A stretch of 64,000 nt of DNA from positions 62,001 to 126,000 of the forward strand of contig NZ_CP013015.1 in assembly GCF_001577525.1 (NCBI RefSeq). Direction: 5' to 3'. Positions 15,291 through 50,392 of this stretch are shown here, piece by piece. Origin of the DNA: Candidatus Desulfofervidus auxilii (GTDB lineage Bacteria > Desulfobacterota > Desulfofervidia > Desulfofervidales > Desulfofervidaceae). The first letter of the stretch is position 1; each line of letters opens with the position of its first letter. Position numbers and translations under genes: made by a program. Under the pieces are notes generated by a model that was given only the letters and a program-made list of their open reading frames with translations, was not told where the DNA came from and did no database searches.

Positions 15291-15479
15291 AGCTGAATAC
15301 TCCAAAAGAATTTAACTTGAACATTCCCCAAAATTTAGGCGTTAATCTTTAAAAACATTCCTGTCTGCCCTGTCTGCCGACAGGCAGGCGACAGGCAGGG
15401 ATGAATTAAGGATTTTTGGCGTTCCATAAGTGGAATAAGAAAAAAGCACACTTTAACTTCACCAACCTATTTATAGCTT

Positions 15480-15561
15480 AGCAGATTGCTCCGTTAAGCC
15501 ATCAAGACCAAGCCCTTTCAGGGTGGCTTTCGCCAGTCTTGATGGCACTCCGCAATCTGCT
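15480..15561. repeat. Nested inverted repeat inside element copy 1
   Basis: Two perfect 10-bp inverted repeats lie one inside the other: AGCAGATTGC (15480-15489) with GCAATCTGCT (15552-15561), and CCATCAAGAC (15499-15508) with GTCTTGATGG (15536-15545). A related sequence occurs at 61612-61652. The structure could fold as a long hairpin in DNA or RNA. It resembles a small palindromic repeat family carried as cargo. Confidence 0.75.
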
Positions 15562-15618
15562 TTTTAAAAAGTAGATTTGGTTGAAGCAAAAAAGTTTTTT
15601 CTTTAAGGGACTATTTTT

Positions 15619-15736
15619 CTGTCAAGCCTGTCTGCCCCTGCCCGCAGGCAGGCGGGGACAGGCAGGGAGGAGCGCAGCGAGCTGCGGAATGCAGGCGAGC
15701 CTGCCCGACCGCAGGCGGGCGAGCACTCCTTGACAG
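15619..15736. repeat. GC-rich palindromic repeat block
   Basis: A strongly GC-rich island in AT-rich surroundings, built from palindromic units of the type CCTGCCCGCAGGCAGG and GCCTGCCCGACCGCAGGCGGG-like steps. It is closed by an outer inverted repeat, CTGTCAAG (15619-15626) and CTTGACAG (15729-15736). Similar units occur at 15361-15400, 26629-26660 and 48433-48515, so this is a dispersed family of extragenic palindromes. Confidence 0.75.
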
Positions 15737-15763
15737 CCCCAGCTCTAAATAAAATATTTGTAT

Positions 15764-15791
15764 GGTTGCGGTCGGTTTTTTGACCGCAACC
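15764..15791. terminator. Hairpin, terminator-like
   Basis: A perfect 10-bp stem, GGTTGCGGTC (15764-15773) and GACCGCAACC (15782-15791), with an eight-base T-rich loop. An A run and then a T run follow (to about 15815). It lies inside element copy 1 and could end transcription coming from gspD or act as part of the element. Confidence 0.5.
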
Positions 15792-16029
15792 CTTAAAAAA
15801 TGTTTTTTTATAATGTTATGGCTTAAAATTAAAAACAATTTTATACTATGCGTAAGGTCAGTTACTATATTTGACCGTTTTCTTTTAAAGTTATTACTGT
15901 TTTGAAGAACTTACCTTTCTTTTTAGAAAGCCTTTAAAAATTCTGGGGAAAGTCCTAAATTTAACCCCTTGCATTTTAAAAAAGTTTGTGCTAGGGTTAG
16001 GCTGACCTCATAAGAAGATTGAGACAAAG

Positions 16030-16848
16030 TTGATAAGGGATATTGATTATCTTCAAAGATTATCCAAGCAGATTCGGAAAGATATTTTGATAATGCTCCA
16101 TAAGGCTGGGTCAGGGCACACAGGAGGTTCACTTTCTGCTGTAGAATTGTTAATTGCTTTGTTTTGGGGTAAATTAAGGCAAGACCCTAAAAATCCCCAT
16201 TGGTCAGAAAGAGACAGATTCGTTTTATCTAAAGGACACGCAGCTCCTGCCCTTTATGCTATCCTTGCTCATTTGGGTTATTTTCCTAAAGAAGAGTTAT
16301 TTCACTTACGAGAGTTGGGGGCTCGGCTACAAGGTCATCCTGATTGCAAATTTACACCAGGCATAGAGGTACCAACCGGGTCTTTAGGACAGGGTTTATC
16401 TATGGCCAATGGGATGGCTATAGCTACCCGTTTGGATAAACTGTCTACTAGGGTGTATGTCCTTTTGGGTGATGGTGAGGTTCAGGAAGGCCAAGTATGG
16501 GAAGCGGCAATGTCTGCAGCCCATTATAAACTTGATAATTTATGTGCTATATTGGATAACAATGGTCTTCAAATAGATGGTTGGGTAAAAGACGTAATGC
16601 AAATCGAGCCTCTTGCTGCCAAATGGAAGGCTTTTGGTTGGACAGTAATAGAGATTGATGGACATGATTTCAAACAGATTTTTGAAGCTTTAGATAAAGC
16701 GGAAAAGATAAAAGAAAGACCTACAATCATCATTGCTCATACTATAAAAGGGAAGGGAGTATCATTTTTTGAAAATCAGGCCAAATATCATGGTGTAGCA
16801 CCGAATACAGAAGAGTTGGAAATGGCTCTTAAGGAATTGGAGCATTAG
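16030..16848 (+). CDS. Transketolase, N-terminal subunit
   Basis: 272 residues forming the thiamine-diphosphate half of a split transketolase: AGSGHTGGSLSAVELL (about 26-41), LSKGHAAPALYA (about 72-83) and the cofactor-binding GDGEVQEGQVWEAA (about 149-162). The C-terminal half is the next gene, nine bases downstream. Transketolase moves two-carbon units in the pentose phosphate pathway. No ATG precedes the conserved region; the best start is TTG at 16030 with only a weak ribosome site. The gene begins about 70 bases after element copy 1, which may have altered its promoter. Confidence 0.92.
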   Translation: MIRDIDYLQRLSKQIRKDILIMLHKAGSGHTGGSLSAVELLIALFWGKLRQDPKNPHWSERDRFVLSKGHAAPALYAILAHLGYFPKEELFHLRELGARLQGHPDCKFTPGIEVPTGSLGQGLSMANGMAIATRLDKLSTRVYVLLGDGEVQEGQVWEAAMSAAHYKLDNLCAILDNNGLQIDGWVKDVMQIEPLAAKWKAFGWTVIEIDGHDFKQIFEALDKAEKIKERPTIIIAHTIKGKGVSFFENQAKYHGVAPNTEELEMALKELEH

Positions 16849-26340: not shown

Positions 26341-26581
26341 AACTTTTATCTTTTTAAAAAAGGAAAGTCAAATAGGCTAATAGAACGGATATCCTACTTG
26401 ACAGATATTTAGGTTTTTTATTTGAGCTTGGAATATCAATCATTTCTTAATTATTGTGGTGGGAGTGCATATTTCAGTCTATTTTTTTTCAAGTTATATA
26501 GGGATGTTAAAAACGATAGTCTATTTTGGGGTAGTCTTAAACTTAAGTAACTCCTGTTTTCTCTTTTTTCTTTTAATTTTA
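26341..26581. other. Non-coding leader upstream of dnaA
   Basis: About 240 bases of AT-rich sequence between dnaA (minus) and element copy 2. It must hold the dnaA promoter. I see no protein, no TTATCCACA boxes and no clear operator. Together with the element it forms a 570-base gap without genes up to tyrS. Confidence 0.6.
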
Positions 26582-26902
26582 CTGAACATTCCCCAAAATT
26601 TAGGCGTTAATCTTTAAAAACATTCCTGTCTGCCCTGTCTGCCGGCAGGCAGGCAGGGATGAATTAAGGATTTTTGGCGTTCAATAAGTGGAATAAGAAA
26701 ATCAAAATCAGGGGTTTGGTCTCCACATTTGACATTAAACTGGTCTGTCTGATTCATATGCGTAAAGCGTGAGGCGTAAGGAGTTTTTTAACACTTTACT
26801 TTTAACGCTTTACTCTTTACGGCTTTTTCTTTTAAAGTTATTACTGTTTTGAGGAGCTTACCTTTCTTTTTAGAAAGCTTTTAAAAATTTTAGGGAAAGT
26901 CC
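26582..26902 (+). mobile_element. Non-autonomous inverted-repeat element, copy 2 (321 bp)
   Basis: The left arm (26582-26700) matches copy 1 almost base for base, apart from an 8-base deletion in a GC-rich palindrome and a few substitutions. The right arm (about 26824-26902) matches at over 90 percent by eye. The interior (26701-26823) is unrelated and contains a CTGTCTG-type dispersed repeat. Ends: left CTGAACATTCCCCAAAATTT, and the right end on the other strand GGACTTTCCCTAAAATTT. An 11-bp direct repeat TTTTAATTTTA flanks it (26571-26581 and 26903-26913), and the right copy overlaps the tyrS stop codon. Confidence 0.82.
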
Positions 26903-26910
26903 TTTTAATT

Positions 26911-28137
26911 TTAAGCTTTATTTTTTGAAAAAATTTTTACCTTTTTGAACTTCTTTTTTCCTAGCTGAATTAGGTAGGTTTTACCACTAGGAATTTCTGT
27001 TTCAGGTGACATTACCTTTTCTTGATTAATTTTTACCCCACCTTGTATGATTAGACGTTTTGCTTCTGAAGTACTGGAGGTAAAATGAGCTAGTTGAAGG
27101 AGTTTAGGAAGCCATATTTTCCCCTCAGGCCAGGAGATGGCTATCTCCTCAATTTTTTTCGGAAGCTTTTTATGTTTAAATACCCTCTCAAATTCTATCT
27201 CTGCCTCTTTTGCTGCCTTTTGCCCATGAAAACGAGTTACAATTTCTAAGGCCAATTGTTTTTTTACCTCTTTGGGATGTAAACTTCCTTTTTGGACTTT
27301 CTCTTTCAATTCAGAAATTTCTTTTAGAGAAGAATCACTGAGAAGTTCATAATACCGCCACATTAACTGGTCAGAAATAGACATGATCTTACCAAACATT
27401 TCCTGTGGAGGTTCGGTAATTCCAATATAATTTCCCAAACTTTTGCTCATTTTTTGCACACCATCTAAGCCTTCTAACAGGGGAAGTGTCATTACAACCT
27501 GAGGTTCTTGACCAAAGTCCCGTTGGAGTTCTCTGCCTACCAAAAGATTAAATTTTTGGTCAGTGCCCCCAACTTCTACATCGGCTTGTAAAGCAATAGA
27601 ATCATATCCTTGAAGAAGAGGGTAGATAAACTCATGGATACTAATTGGCTGTTCATTCAAAAATCGCTTATGAAAATCATCTCTCTCCAACATTCGGGCT
27701 ACAGTGTAATGAGAACAGAGTTTTACCACATCAATAGCTGACATTTTACTCAACCAGCTACTGTTGAAAACAACTTTAGTCCTAGTTGGTTCCAAAATCT
27801 TAAAAATTTGTTCTTCATAGGTTTGGGCATTAATTAAAACCTCTTCCCTGGTCAGGGCCGGCCTTGTTTCTGATTTACCAGAAGGATCACCAATCATAGC
27901 TGTAAAATCACCAATAAGAAAATAGACATCATGTCCTAATTCTTGGAAATGCTTTAGTTTCTGAAGTAAGACAGTATGTCCCAGATGAATGTCTGGGGCA
28001 GTAGGGTCAAAACCTGCTTTCACCTTTAAAGTTCGCTTTTTAGTATGAGCAGATATCAATTTTTGCTTTAATTCTTTTTCAGAGATAACTTCTACTACAC
28101 CTCTTAAAAGCAGGTTTAACTCTTCCTCAATGCTCAT
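26911..28137 (-). CDS. tyrS: Tyrosyl-tRNA synthetase
   Basis: 408 residues of the class I synthetase that charges tRNA-Tyr. The HIGH-type motif is HLGH within [18 protein letters not shown] (about 45-62), and KMSKSLGN (about 233-240) is the KMSKS loop. A C-terminal S4 RNA-binding domain occupies about 345-405. It overlaps ymdB by 11 bases at its 5' end. The stop codon (26911-26913) lies in the target duplication of element copy 2, so the element inserted exactly at the end of this gene. Confidence 0.97.
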
Positions 28138-30661: not shown

Positions 30662-30669
30662 GTTTTATA

Positions 30670-30846
30670 TTTATCCCGCAGTGCCGTGTTGGTAGAGTCT
30701 TTTGAACCTGTCTTCCGACAGGTGGGTACTCCATTACTCCTTTTGGCTTTTTCCTAAAAGGAAAGGCCATCCAGAGCAAGCGGGAGTTCCCAAGGTAATT
30801 AACGTCGGCCCAAAATCATCTACCTAATCACGCACACCGCAGGAAT
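30670..30846 (-). ncRNA. ssrS: 6S RNA
   Basis: Read on the minus strand, CCTGCGGTGTGC (30832-30843) pairs along its whole length with GGCACTGCGGG (30675-30685) to form the closing stem, allowing G-U pairs. The inner arms and a large unpaired middle (around TTGGGCCGACG ... ACCTTGGGAACTCCCGCTTG) match the 6S layout. The position directly after zapA is the usual home of ssrS in proteobacteria. 6S RNA mimics an open promoter and sequesters sigma-70 RNA polymerase. Its 5' end overlaps the zapA stop. Exact ends are estimated. Confidence 0.82.
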
Positions 30847-31132
30847 TTTTATCCCAAAAGTTATCAATTAAATTTATTAAATATGTAATTTTATGGTCTA
30901 ATTTTTTAGTCAAATTTTCATAATTTTCTTTCAAATCCGAATACTCAAGAGCTATATTAAATGTAGCTAACAAACTTAAACTCAATCTATCTTTAAAGTG
31001 TTTTTGTCTTTGAATATCTGATAGATATTCGTTGACAAAATTAGTTATTTTCTCAATTTTCTCCGCAGGTTCTTTGGTCTTTACTAAAAATTCTCTTTCA
31101 AACAATCTAACTGGAATTATATTTTCCTTCAT
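30824..31132 (-). CDS. zapA: Cell division protein ZapA
   Basis: 102 residues with the ZapA pattern: an N-terminal VRLFEREFLVKT strand region, KIEKITNFVNEYLSDIQ helix (about 25-41) and a C-terminal coiled coil. ZapA crosslinks FtsZ filaments at the division ring. It overlaps the upstream coiled-coil gene by four bases (ATGA) and is followed by the 6S RNA, the order seen widely in proteobacteria. Confidence 0.85.
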   Translation of the reverse strand: MKENIIPVRLFEREFLVKTKEPAEKIEKITNFVNEYLSDIQRQKHFKDRLSLSLLATFNIALEYSDLKENYENLTKKLDHKITYLINLIDNFWDKNSCGVRD

Positions 31133-46461: not shown

Positions 46462-46857
46462 CTATATTCTCATCCTCAATGAAAAATCAGATAGTAAATT
46501 TTTCTCTGGATAATGCTTTACATTGCGGGTGATTATTTTTAAGTTCTTTTCCTTTGCAGTTGCCATTATAAGACAGTCAATATCCGAGAGTGTTATACCC
46601 CTTTTTCTATAATCTCTGTAAAATTCAGCTCCCATTTTTATAATTTTCCCGTCTAAATTCAATATCTCAATAGAACTAGCGAAGACTTCCACAGATTTAT
46701 ATTGCTTTTTAGAATAACTCCCTTTCAACAGCTCATAGTATGTAAGAATGCTTATAAAATACCTGTCCTTTTCTGAAATTTTTTCAAATAATTCTACGGC
46801 AAACTCTCTATTCTTCAAAAAATCAACGCATACATCAGTGTCGATTATGTATCCCAA
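46462..46857 (-). CDS. vapC: VapC-type PIN domain toxin
   Basis: 131 residues with PIN ribonuclease acidic residues in IIDTDVCVDFLK (Asp6, Asp8), YYELLKG and LSDIDCLIMATA, followed by IITRNVKHY. VapC toxins cleave RNA when the antitoxin is lost. It overlaps the upstream antitoxin gene by 13 bases. It lies just outside the TolC operon and marks the start of an accessory region. Confidence 0.88.
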   Translation of the reverse strand: MGYIIDTDVCVDFLKNREFAVELFEKISEKDRYFISILTYYELLKGSYSKKQYKSVEVFASSIEILNLDGKIIKMGAEFYRDYRKRGITLSDIDCLIMATAKEKNLKIITRNVKHYPEKNLLSDFSLRMRI

Positions 46858-47096
46858 TTTTTCATTCTCCTCGCGCTTGCCTTTTTGTTTTCTTCTCTGA
46901 TCCTGTTTACGAACTCTACGCCGTCTTCCTCAAAGTCTTCCCACGAACCTGCAAGAGATAAAAGTTTCTCTCTTTTTTTCTTTTTTATGAACTCCTTTAA
47001 GGCCTGGTTTATTGTTTGACTAAAGTTTTTTGAAAAGCCTACAGCCTCTCTATATATATCCTCAGATATAGAAACCGTCTTTTTCACAACAGCCAT
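46845..47096 (-). CDS. vapB: VapB-type antitoxin
   Basis: 83 residues from the ATG at 47096. The N-terminal VKKTVSISEDIYREAVGFS looks like a ribbon-helix-helix DNA-binding strand, and the charged C-terminal tail would bind the toxin. Antitoxin first and overlapping the toxin gene is the usual order, suggesting autoregulation of a shared promoter. Confidence 0.8.
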   Translation of the reverse strand: MAVVKKTVSISEDIYREAVGFSKNFSQTINQALKEFIKKKKREKLLSLAGSWEDFEEDGVEFVNRIREENKKASARRMKNWDT

Positions 47097-47343
47097 TTTA
47101 TACCCCCTGCTTTTTAGCATAGTAATACTTATTAGTAATCCTGTCAAGTAAGGCAATAAGGTGAGAACAAAAAGAAATATAAATATGAGGAGGCTATAAA
47201 GAAGGAAGGGGAGGAAGGCTTGACAGGGTGTTGAAGGCTAACAAGAACAAAATATTATCCACTGGTATTTTTTGTCAGAAAATAAAAAGGCCAGGTAAGC
47301 CTGGATTCAAGATTCAAAACTGCTCCTTTTAATTTATTTACCT

Positions 47344-47684: not shown

Positions 47685-48077
47685 TTACCATATTATCCTC
47701 ACACCTTTAAACTCTTGTATTCTCCTCTCCGCTGATATAAGGGGAAGTGAAAGGACACGAGAAGTAGCTACAATAAGCTGGTCAACAGGGTCCTGATGAA
47801 AGCCTTGCAAGGAACAACTTTCTACACATATCTCTGGTTCAAGGTGAGCCACCAGTATTTCACATTCAAACAAGGAACGCTTTATCCAACTTATTAGGGG
47901 GATAGAAAACGCTATTCTATTCTTCTCTACTAGCTTAGCCAGCTCCCACATAGAAATAGCAGAGATCCATTTTCTTTTTGCCTGCTTCACTGCCTCTTTA
48001 GCCTTCTTTGAAAGGTTTTCATATTGCTCTATGCTTATCCATATCCAGATATGGGTATCAAGAAGGATGTCTCTCAC
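47685..48077 (-). CDS. PIN domain toxin
   Basis: 130 residues. The conserved acidic positions lie in ILLDTHIWIW, ISMWELAKLV and DPVDQLIVATS. The GTG start at 48077 overlaps the antitoxin stop (GTGA), which decides the start over an upstream TTG. The DTHIWIW subtype pairs with Phd/YefM antitoxins, as here. Confidence 0.87.
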   Translation of the reverse strand: MRDILLDTHIWIWISIEQYENLSKKAKEAVKQAKRKWISAISMWELAKLVEKNRIAFSIPLISWIKRSLFECEILVAHLEPEICVESCSLQGFHQDPVDQLIVATSRVLSLPLISAERRIQEFKGVRIIW

Positions 48078-48301
48078 TTTAAAACCTCCCAATCACCTTC
48101 AGCCACAGGAGAAATAATATCACCAATAAATATGACACTCTCTCTAAGAGGAACTTCTTTTTCTTTTGAAGACTCTATCGCTCTTATTTCAGCAATAGGA
48201 ACACCCCTTTTTGTTATTATCACCCTCTTCTTCTGTCTATGGATTTCCTCAAGTATTCCCAAACATTTGGCCTTAAATTTAGAAATAGCAATGGTCTCCA
48301 T
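48074..48301 (-). CDS. Phd/YefM-type antitoxin
   Basis: 75 residues: METIAISKFKAKCLGILEEI is the Phd N-terminal DNA-binding pattern, followed by VIITKRGVPIAEIRAI. The acidic C-terminal end neutralises the downstream PIN toxin. A small inverted repeat near 48318-48340 (TAATTTAACCATGG-type) upstream could be its operator. Confidence 0.85.
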   Translation of the reverse strand: METIAISKFKAKCLGILEEIHRQKKRVIITKRGVPIAEIRAIESSKEKEVPLRESVIFIGDIISPVAEGDWEVLK

Positions 48302-48980: not shown

Positions 48981-49811
48981 TTATTCTCTGCCTTTTTCCC
49001 ATATTTCCTTTGGTGTTTTGTATCCAAGTGCACTGTGTAATCTGCAAGTGTTGTAATCCTCTATCCAGTTGTTTATCTTTTCCCTTGCCTCAAAAATATC
49101 ACTAAATATCTCTCTATTCAAGCATTCAAGGCGCAAAAGCTTGTGAAAGCTTTCCATATGACCATTATTAAATGGCTGTCCAGGTGGTATCACTTCCTCT
49201 TCTATATTCCATCTATGTATAAGTGCCTTGAAATGTTTTGATTTAAATTCAGGCCCATCGTCACGTCTTATCATTTTGGGAGGCCCGTATAGTCTAAAAA
49301 GTTCTTCAAGATGCTCAGATACAACTTTACCACTAATACTAAAGCCAACCACAGGCTCAAATGCCCTCCTGGAATAAACATCTATTACATTGAACACTCT
49401 AAAAGCCCTTCCATTTTCGAGACTGTCATGGATAAAATCCATTGCCAAAATTTCTCCGGCATAGGTAGCAGGAGCAGGATTGAATTCTTTTTGCCTTGTC
49501 TTATGCCGCCTCTTGCTCTTAAAGAAACCATATCTATTAAATCCCTCTTCTTTCCAAATCCGATAAACCTTTTTGTGATTTACATTAAAACCCTCTTTCT
49601 TAAGAAGCACAGTAATTTTTTTGTAACCATAAGTTTTATAAATCATGGCTAATTGCCTTATCCTTTCCCGTAAAATCTTATCTTTAGAAAATTTAGTTGT
49701 TTTATAATAAAAGGTTGAACGAGAAATCTCTAATCTCTTAAGTATCACACTTAAAGAAATACCTTTAGGAGAAATCTGTTTACTTATGCTATGTATTCTT
49801 TTAGCTAACAT
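48981..49811 (-). CDS. IS3-family transposase OrfB
   Basis: 276 residues with an HTH_21 region and the rve integrase core. The catalytic triad is visible: LAMDFIHD, IRRDDGPEF and NGHMESFHK (D, D, E with the usual 35-residue spacing). YNTCRLHSALGYKTP is the closing IS3 motif. It appears intact. Its frame is -1 relative to orfA and stays open through an A8 run, so an OrfAB fusion by frameshifting is likely. Confidence 0.93.
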   Translation of the reverse strand: MLAKRIHSISKQISPKGISLSVILKRLEISRSTFYYKTTKFSKDKILRERIRQLAMIYKTYGYKKITVLLKKEGFNVNHKKVYRIWKEEGFNRYGFFKSKRRHKTRQKEFNPAPATYAGEILAMDFIHDSLENGRAFRVFNVIDVYSRRAFEPVVGFSISGKVVSEHLEELFRLYGPPKMIRRDDGPEFKSKHFKALIHRWNIEEEVIPPGQPFNNGHMESFHKLLRLECLNREIFSDIFEAREKINNWIEDYNTCRLHSALGYKTPKEIWEKGRE

Positions 49812-49827
49812 GTGTTTTTCCTCTAGG

Positions 49828-50097
49828 TTAGAAGTTTTTTTTAATAAGTTCTGTTAGTGTTTGTATTTCTAATTCTTTTTCAGCTAAAAGTCTTTTAAGT
49901 CTTGCATTTTCTTCCTCAAGAGCTTTGAGTCGTTTGGCTTCAGAAGCAGAAAAACCCTTGTATTTTTGTCTCCAGCGATAGATAGTTTGTTCTACTATTC
50001 CATATTTTCTAGCGACAAACGCCACAGAGTTACCTGGAGTTTCAGCTTCAGCCAAGATACGAATGATTTGGTCAATACTAAATCTATTTTTCTTCAT
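49828..50097 (-). CDS. IS3-family OrfA (HTH protein)
   Basis: 89 residues from the ATG at 50097 (MKKNRFSIDQIIRILAEAE), with a helix-turn-helix of the HTH_Tnp_1 type (about 20-48) and a leucine-zipper-like tail (LKALEEENARLKRLLAEKE). The last codons ATT AAA AAA AAC contain an A8 slippery run at which a -1 shift would enter the orfB frame. Confidence 0.9.
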   Translation of the reverse strand: MKKNRFSIDQIIRILAEAETPGNSVAFVARKYGIVEQTIYRWRQKYKGFSASEAKRLKALEEENARLKRLLAEKELEIQTLTELIKKNF

Positions 50098-50392
50098 AGC
50101 CGCTCCCCTTAATCCTAACATTTTACATGTCCAAAAAATGGGGAGCAATCCAGCCTGGGTTATAATAGATAAATTTGAGAAAAAGGAGGCCACCTATGAA
50201 AAGGAGGCCACCAGGTCAAAAGATGCGCAAAGCTGGAAGCATTGTTAATTTGTATTTGGCTACCTTTTTACAGGAAATTTGGGATTTGATCAGAAAATAA
50301 TATAGCTCCGCCTATCTTTTCATCTCCTTGTTGAAGAAATCAATCGTGGATTTTGGGTTATCTTAGGCTTTGACTAATTTAATTATTTCCCC

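Follow-up and report, generated by a model that had tools for sequence, protein, structure and literature searches.

Two segments of the window, the 64,000-nt stretch of Candidatus Desulfofervidus auxilii DNA analysed here, are very probably MITEs of an IS4/Tn5-type IS and insert non-randomly, lying upstream of promoters at a fixed distance. This constant spacing to the -35/-10 boxes is the unusual part of the finding and was missed by a first-pass annotation of the window, in which the segments had been described as non-coding transposable elements with conserved ends and a swappable interior. The first segment (element 1) and its immediate surroundings were resolved into the following features:

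15317-15957, plus strand: element 1, a 637-bp miniature element (core 15319-15955, GAACATTCCCC...GGGGAAAGTCC)
15309-15316: left target duplication, 8 bp, AATTTAAC, identical to 15958-15965
15319-15443, plus strand: left arm, 125 bp, with the terminal repeat GAACATTCCCCAAAATTT
15442-15879, plus strand: long interior form, about 440 bp, with nested GC-rich palindromes inside
15360-15400 and 15625-15725: nested GC-rich palindromes
15878-15955, plus strand: right arm, 78 bp, with the terminal repeat (reverse complement GGACTTTCCCCAGAATTT)
15958-15965: right target duplication, AATTTAAC
15969-15974, plus strand: presumed -35 box TTGCAT, a weak match at offset 13 from the end of the element core
15992-15997, plus strand: presumed -10 box TAGGGT, proposed from sequence, after a 17-nt spacer from TTGCAT

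The second segment (element 2) was made up as follows:

26582-26904, plus strand: element 2, a 319-bp miniature element (core 26584-26902)
26573-26581: left target duplication, 9 bp, TTAATTTTA, 9/9 match
26584-26701, plus strand: left arm, 93% identical to the left arm of element 1
26625-26662: nested GC-rich palindrome
26702-26824, plus strand: short interior form, a core of about 125 bp
26825-26902, plus strand: right arm, 94% identical to the right arm of element 1
26905-26913: right target duplication, TTAATTTTA, overlapping the end of a tyrS-like ORF (26911-28137, minus strand)

The shared arms reported in the first pass were present at the identities listed. The core of element 1 was bordered by TT on the left and TA on the right, and that of element 2 by CT and TT, respectively, followed in both cases by the duplication. 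Target duplications had been proposed for both elements and were recovered for both (8 and 9 bp), but not in the form of the 11-bp TTTTAATTTTA suggested for element 2, which takes in 2 bp that belong, on the right side, to the outer pair of the element itself. Both window copies displayed the features by which MITEs are recognised: terminal inverted repeats, no transposase gene, a length below approximately 700 bp, target duplications (8 and 9 bp) and a parental IS sharing their ends. The weak putative promoter next to element 1 (TTGCAT-17-TAGGGT) precedes a transketolase-like ORF (16030-16848), and the position of its TTGCAT agrees with the family-wide spacing between element ends and -35 boxes, while no clear promoter was seen at the usual offset on either side of element 2. 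Within the long core of element 1, CTGTCAAG and CTTGACAG flank a palindrome block (15600-15745); this arrangement may stem from an earlier nested insertion in which TTGACA likewise faces outward.

Arm searches of the genome to which the window belongs (G000; 2,540,211 bases in one contig) returned 55 left-arm and 40 right-arm matches, weak fragments included. Merging of the stronger matches yielded about 49 places, of which 15 carried both arms, 18 the left arm only and 16 the right arm only; weak left-arm matches representing mere pieces of nested palindromes were excluded from this count. An 18-bp end pattern allowing up to three mismatches was matched 74 times (50 of these with two mismatches or fewer), compared to 15 times for a control pattern, and the element ends therefore cannot be attributed to chance. 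A genome search with both arms, as recommended in the first pass, thus found many copies, bearing out its view of non-coding transposable elements with conserved ends and inverted repeats; the family was neither confined to two copies nor limited to arms without paired ends and target duplications.

The interiors were a different matter. They had been taken for unrelated and swappable cargo, which would have made the elements more than simple MITEs. Two distinct cores did indeed exist, but both recurred elsewhere in the genome, and what looked like exchange was mainly a deletion series combined with nested palindromes. The core of element 1 was found near-complete in two more full copies, with 92% identity at 1981 kb and 79% at 590 kb. 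Fragments of it, in the same order, were seen at 489, 1552, 1623, 1891 and 1463 kb, among other places. The core of element 2 was present in three copies, the other two being located at 1546 kb (98%) and 2038 kb (89%). Nearly coreless copies also exist, for instance one of about 125 bp in total at 1863 kb. GC-rich palindromes of the CTGTCTGCC/GGCAGACAGG type were nested in many copies and also occurred as a separate family elsewhere in the genome. Judging from these alignments, the interiors largely trace back to a single long form shortened in a series of deletions, with nested palindromes or insertions, alongside one alternative short core. Deletion series with nested insertions are the usual look of decaying miniature elements.

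A copy of 2.48 kb (2280711-2283193; loci L051 and L005) was considered as a candidate autonomous element and dropped, its extra length being accounted for by an IS110-type gene, partly masked with N, which splits the copy. The IS110 assignment was made by eye on the unmasked N-terminal residues, and this MITE copy would accordingly host a nested element of the bridge-RNA type. Two arm hairpins highlighted in the first pass (CTTTC/GAAAG and TTCCA/TGGAA) were not conserved as pairs among copies: others read GTTCAATAAGTGGAAT instead of TTCCA/TGGAA, and the CTTTC side of the former hairpin varied without compensation. An Rfam search of the window gave no match on the elements, the only hit being a 6S RNA elsewhere (30669-30848, minus strand; RF00013, 86.6 bits). 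Further features of the window recognised by eye were two adjoining frames with the look of an IS3-type transposase pair (48981-50193, minus strand) and small PIN-domain toxin-like frames (46462-47156 and 47685-48092, minus strand), the first of which is preceded by an antitoxin-like frame.

In the end alignment, left ends read YTGRACATTCCCCARAATTT and right ends CAGGACTTTCCCCAGAATTT; the outermost dinucleotide of the element proper is TG at the right end, and TT or CT/CA at most left ends. When a 9-bp duplication was scored in fixed register, 3 of 10 end pairs matched in G000 (element 2, 9/9; 1981 kb, 9/9; 248 kb, 8/9), two of the ten pairs resting on weak ends with three mismatches; the duplication of element 1 is shifted by one base from this register and matches over 8 bp. 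In a second genome, G277, 13 of 24 end pairs reached at least 8/9. None of the mismatched control pairs reached 8/9 in either genome.

The first pass had also predicted an autonomous element with the same ends. Intact relatives with similar ends were found in two other genomes, measuring 1482 bp between their outer ends in G015 (423 aa) and 1477 bp in G271 (420 aa); in G000 itself, two broken copies were found. The first, running from 1958772 down to approximately 1958138, consists of a left arm, about 92 + 44 N-terminal residues of the transposase and the right end GGGGAAAGTCC, the remainder of the gene having been deleted between its start and the right end; the left arm of element 1 is the same left non-coding end as in this remnant. 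In the second (214461-214822), a C-terminal transposase fragment with 65% identity to the enzyme of G340 adjoins the right end. As an intact transposase of the parent IS was not found in G000, we only infer from the sequence that its MITEs have been mobilised there. In another genome, G001, a 105-bp element comprises the left end with the beginning of the transposase region, fused to the right end, and here the birth of a MITE through internal deletion can be seen directly.

Enzymes of the G015/G271 type matched NCBIfam IS4 models (4.5e-11 and 1.4e-08), with a best score of 42 bits lying below the naming cut-off of 160, and Pfam DDE_Tnp_1 (1.4e-4 and 4e-5), with the cut-off of 23 passed in one protein only (23.9). 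Their DDE spacings (86/130 and 86/124) fall inside the IS4 range D(60-110)D(100-150)E, the YREK signature Y(2)R(3)E(6)K is perfect (YVTRWKVEETIRFIK and YLTRWTVEETIRFVK), and a profile match to Tn5 transposase was obtained (E = 0.004). A structure model of moderate confidence (pLDDT 55), built from eleven relatives, displayed a beta-strand insertion between the second D and the E; all six of its significant Foldseek matches in the PDB were Tn5 transposase (E = 2e-7 to 1.5e-6), at low TM-scores of 0.3-0.4. The 9-bp duplication also agrees with the IS4 trait of about one helix turn. Given that the NCBIfam score was under the cut-off and the Pfam threshold was passed by one protein, the parent is best called IS4-type and not assigned to any named IS4 model, and its enzyme possibly represents a new subgroup. 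ISL3, IS256 and Mutator parentage, suggested by the end sequence, were dropped after the IS4/Tn5-type enzyme was found.

Among known groups, the IS4Sa subgroup of the IS4 family (De Palmenaer 2008, PMC2266710), characterised by duplications of 8-10 bp and a length of 1150-1750 bp, is the one that the parent resembles. Common to both are the YREK signature, a DDE spacing in range, 5'-CA ends with T at position 9, a size of about 1.5 kb and a 9-bp duplication, the likeness to IS4Sa being one of ends, size and duplication length only. Unlike the members named by the IS4 family models, the parent has NCBIfam IS4 scores under the naming cut-offs.

Flanks of the elements carried TTGACA on the right and its reverse complement on the left, at a near-constant distance. 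The resulting geometry consists of the TG end, the nine duplicated bases, 3-4 bp, a -35 box and, about 17 nt on, a -10-like box. Statistics were calculated on non-redundant ends read outward, listed by mismatch cut-offs with hand exclusion of a few chance matches. The best -35/-10 pair started 12-16 nt from the GTCC end at 27 of 53 ends in G000 (5.5 expected), the corresponding figures being 25 of 57 for G277 and 20 of 51 for the other genomes together (about 5-6 expected), for an offset window picked after viewing the own-genome flanks and with some flanks of the other genomes inspected by eye ahead of the statistics. With promoter weights set to E. coli-type values, 20 (G000), 24 (G277) and 15 (others) ends scored at least 6 bits at this offset, compared to means of 1.2-1.3 and a maximum of 5 in mononucleotide shuffles; when the G000 flanks were read backwards as a control, 2 ends did so. 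Per-position enrichment of TTGACA (one mismatch allowed) at offsets 12-16 was 13.9-fold in G000, 27.5-fold in both G277 and G060, and 55-fold in G282 (9 ends only). The peak was approximately 3 nt wide, at offset 13-15, in four genomes from at least two phyla, with neighbouring offsets near background.

Both end types faced promoters in G000 (11/27 and 11/24) and in G277 (7/12 and 18/45). In G060, where the two ends are more unlike, only the GGAGTTTCCCC type did so (5/8 vs 0/6). About half of all ends lacked a promoter, and some elements, element 2 among them, had none on either side; a promoterless end is expected in paired elements, since one side alone need face the promoter. A downstream reading-frame comparison of promoter and non-promoter ends gave no significant difference (15/23 vs 14/27).

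Relatives of the elements were sought among 85,000 species genomes using a 19-bp left-end pattern, which matched an Omnitrophota MAG, a Saganbacteria MAG, a Desulfofervidaceae MAG and Nitrosomonas Nm51. For the Omnitrophota and Saganbacteria matches, a paired second end lay at a distance of 170-210 bp, and copies were numerous in G060, the Saganbacteria genome. No paired second end was visible near the Nitrosomonas Nm51 and Desulfofervidaceae matches, which may be remnants or chance. G004, which comes from the same family as the window's genome, also carries the exact stretch matched in the Desulfofervidaceae MAG, and the window's genome can accordingly be placed in the Desulfofervidaceae. Short elements of Omnitrophota and Saganbacteria (L072 and L075; L077-L098 in G060) combine near-identical ends with other palindromes inside, which suggests either that they have spread between phyla or that their ends are strongly conserved. 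The 18-bp end pattern was present in 8 of 395 own-phylum genomes, G000 included, and in several of these the end borders a transposase frame; exact copies numbered 19 in G277 and 8 in G282.

Viral contigs yielded one unrelated end-pattern match and no transposase relative, and plasmids gave no match to the C-terminal part of the transposase. With the full protein, the plasmid search recovered a Thermus IS of 1314 bp with a transposase 32% identical, ends CAGGACTTTACCC/CAGGGCTTTACCC and a duplication, at two loci:

L240: Thermus IS on a Thermus parvatiensis plasmid
L241: Thermus IS on a Thermus aquaticus plasmid

Only one insertion of this IS had TTGACA at offset 13, immediately behind the duplication; in the others it was not clearly present. 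The promoter-upstream habit may therefore be limited to a sub-clade.

To account for these observations, we propose that an IS4-type transposase acting in trans would bind the inverted repeats, cut out the element and insert it at another site through a join staggered by 9 bp (cut-and-paste), and that the cores would afterwards decay through deletion and nested insertion. The complex of transposase and ends might be guided by promoter-bound RNA polymerase or by DNA shape upstream of the -35 box (the UP-element position), which would provide a safe landing place between genes, as an insertion just upstream of a promoter leaves the promoter whole. The many single-armed copies speak against this explanation. 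It is a narrower question whether targeting of the RNA polymerase bound at promoters, or of the proximal UP-element position, arose independently in a Tn5/IS4-type lineage whose elements occur in at least two phyla, and here we lean slightly towards the negative. A variant of the guidance step, in which the transposase reads TTGACA (or TGTCAA) as plain sequence and not as part of a promoter or polymerase complex, seems rather doubtful to us: TTGACA is the strongest common feature besides the duplication, yet several sites paired a poor -35 with a good -10 box at the right spacing (TTGAAT-16-TATAAT, TTGTCA-17-TATAAT, TTTACC-17-TACAAT), and promoter recognition is favoured over hexamer recognition for this reason. 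The -10 boxes behind element hexamers were also better than those behind all window TTGAC sites (P = 1e-4 in the own genome, 1e-3 in the others). Survivor bias could equally yield both this difference and the sites with a poor -35 but a good -10 box. Insertion points avoided reading frames, with 8 of 50 lying inside compared to 85% of random positions. This strong depletion would fit random insertion followed by selection, whereby only harmless insertions upstream of promoters survive, as would the AT-richness of the duplications. AT-rich duplications are common among many IS. Selection of this kind predicts a broad spread of distances, against the narrow peak recorded in four genomes, and we regard it as improbable.

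Two further readings concern the nature of the elements themselves. The first pass had favoured a dedicated capture element, in which arms are retained around an actively exchanged cargo. The presence of two different cores within near-identical arms, the copy with an IS110-type insertion and the relatives in other phyla with other palindromes between similar ends could all be accommodated in this way, but the long core is common to many copies, in order, as a deletion series, no gene cargo besides the nested IS was found, and the insertions resemble ordinary nested elements, making active exchange very unlikely. Extremely unlikely is a role as host regulatory or RNA elements (similar to BOX, REP or Correia-type repeats) retained for their function upstream of genes: the location just upstream of promoters, the conserved arms and the nested palindromes are what such elements would show, whereas the target duplications, the IS4-type parent with the same ends, the near-equal orientation of end types towards promoters in G000, the decaying cores, the unconserved hairpins and the absence of an Rfam match in the window are not.

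Insertion at a fixed distance upstream of promoters has been described for other transposases. TnGBS/ISLre2 (p-MULT 3) and the ISKra4 group (p-MULT 4) insert 13-17 bp upstream of the -35 box (Guerillot 2014, PMC3942029), and contact with the RNA polymerase initiation complex was proposed for TnGBS in the same study. The elements described here share this fixed spacing, with an offset of 13-15 from the GTCC end, or 11-13 from the terminal CA/TG, the latter being slightly shorter than 13-17. A further likeness is that orientation follows the similarity of the terminal repeats: in the Mutator-type elements of that study, alike repeats are associated with both orientations and differing repeats with one (PMC3942029), comparable to both orientations in G000 and G277 and a single one in G060. 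The enzymes, however, differ, p-MULT 3/4 transposases being Mutator-type, with a C/D(2)H motif after the second D and a helical insertion, whereas the enzyme here is Tn5/IS4-type, with no C/D(2)H visible after the second D and a beta-strand insertion. MITEAba12 of ISAba12 (PMC6382973) is similarly short and non-coding, with inverted repeats and a 9-bp duplication in common with its parental IS; its outward promoters lie inside the element, in contrast to the outside promoter at fixed spacing here, and its duplications are without a sequence trend, unlike the fixed promoter spacing here.

MITEs and promoter-upstream targeting are thus already known. Promoter-upstream targeting by an IS4/Tn5-type element was not found in a search of openly accessible journal papers, and the text of De Palmenaer 2008 (PMC2266710) does not describe promoter-upstream insertion for the IS4 family, the word promoter being absent from it. 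The IS4 review describes strong target-arm conservation in some IS4 elements and in one IS4Sa element, and part of the promoter-upstream targeting may be implicit in that conservation.

Safe-site targeting upstream of promoters had previously been tied to one transposase superfamily and to a motif proposed within it. Tn5-type enzymes are among those whose chemistry and structure are best known, and with the same geometry in a Tn5-type enzyme, the question of how a transposase finds promoters becomes directly testable. The spacing could also serve the annotation of uncultured lineages, as an inexpensive means of pinpointing genuine -35 boxes by position. If true, promoter targeting by this family would represent a further independent origin of a bacterial counterpart to Ty3-style promoter integration. 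Dozens of promoters in the genome of this organism may also be directly preceded by a transposon, in the region normally occupied by activator and UP-element sites.
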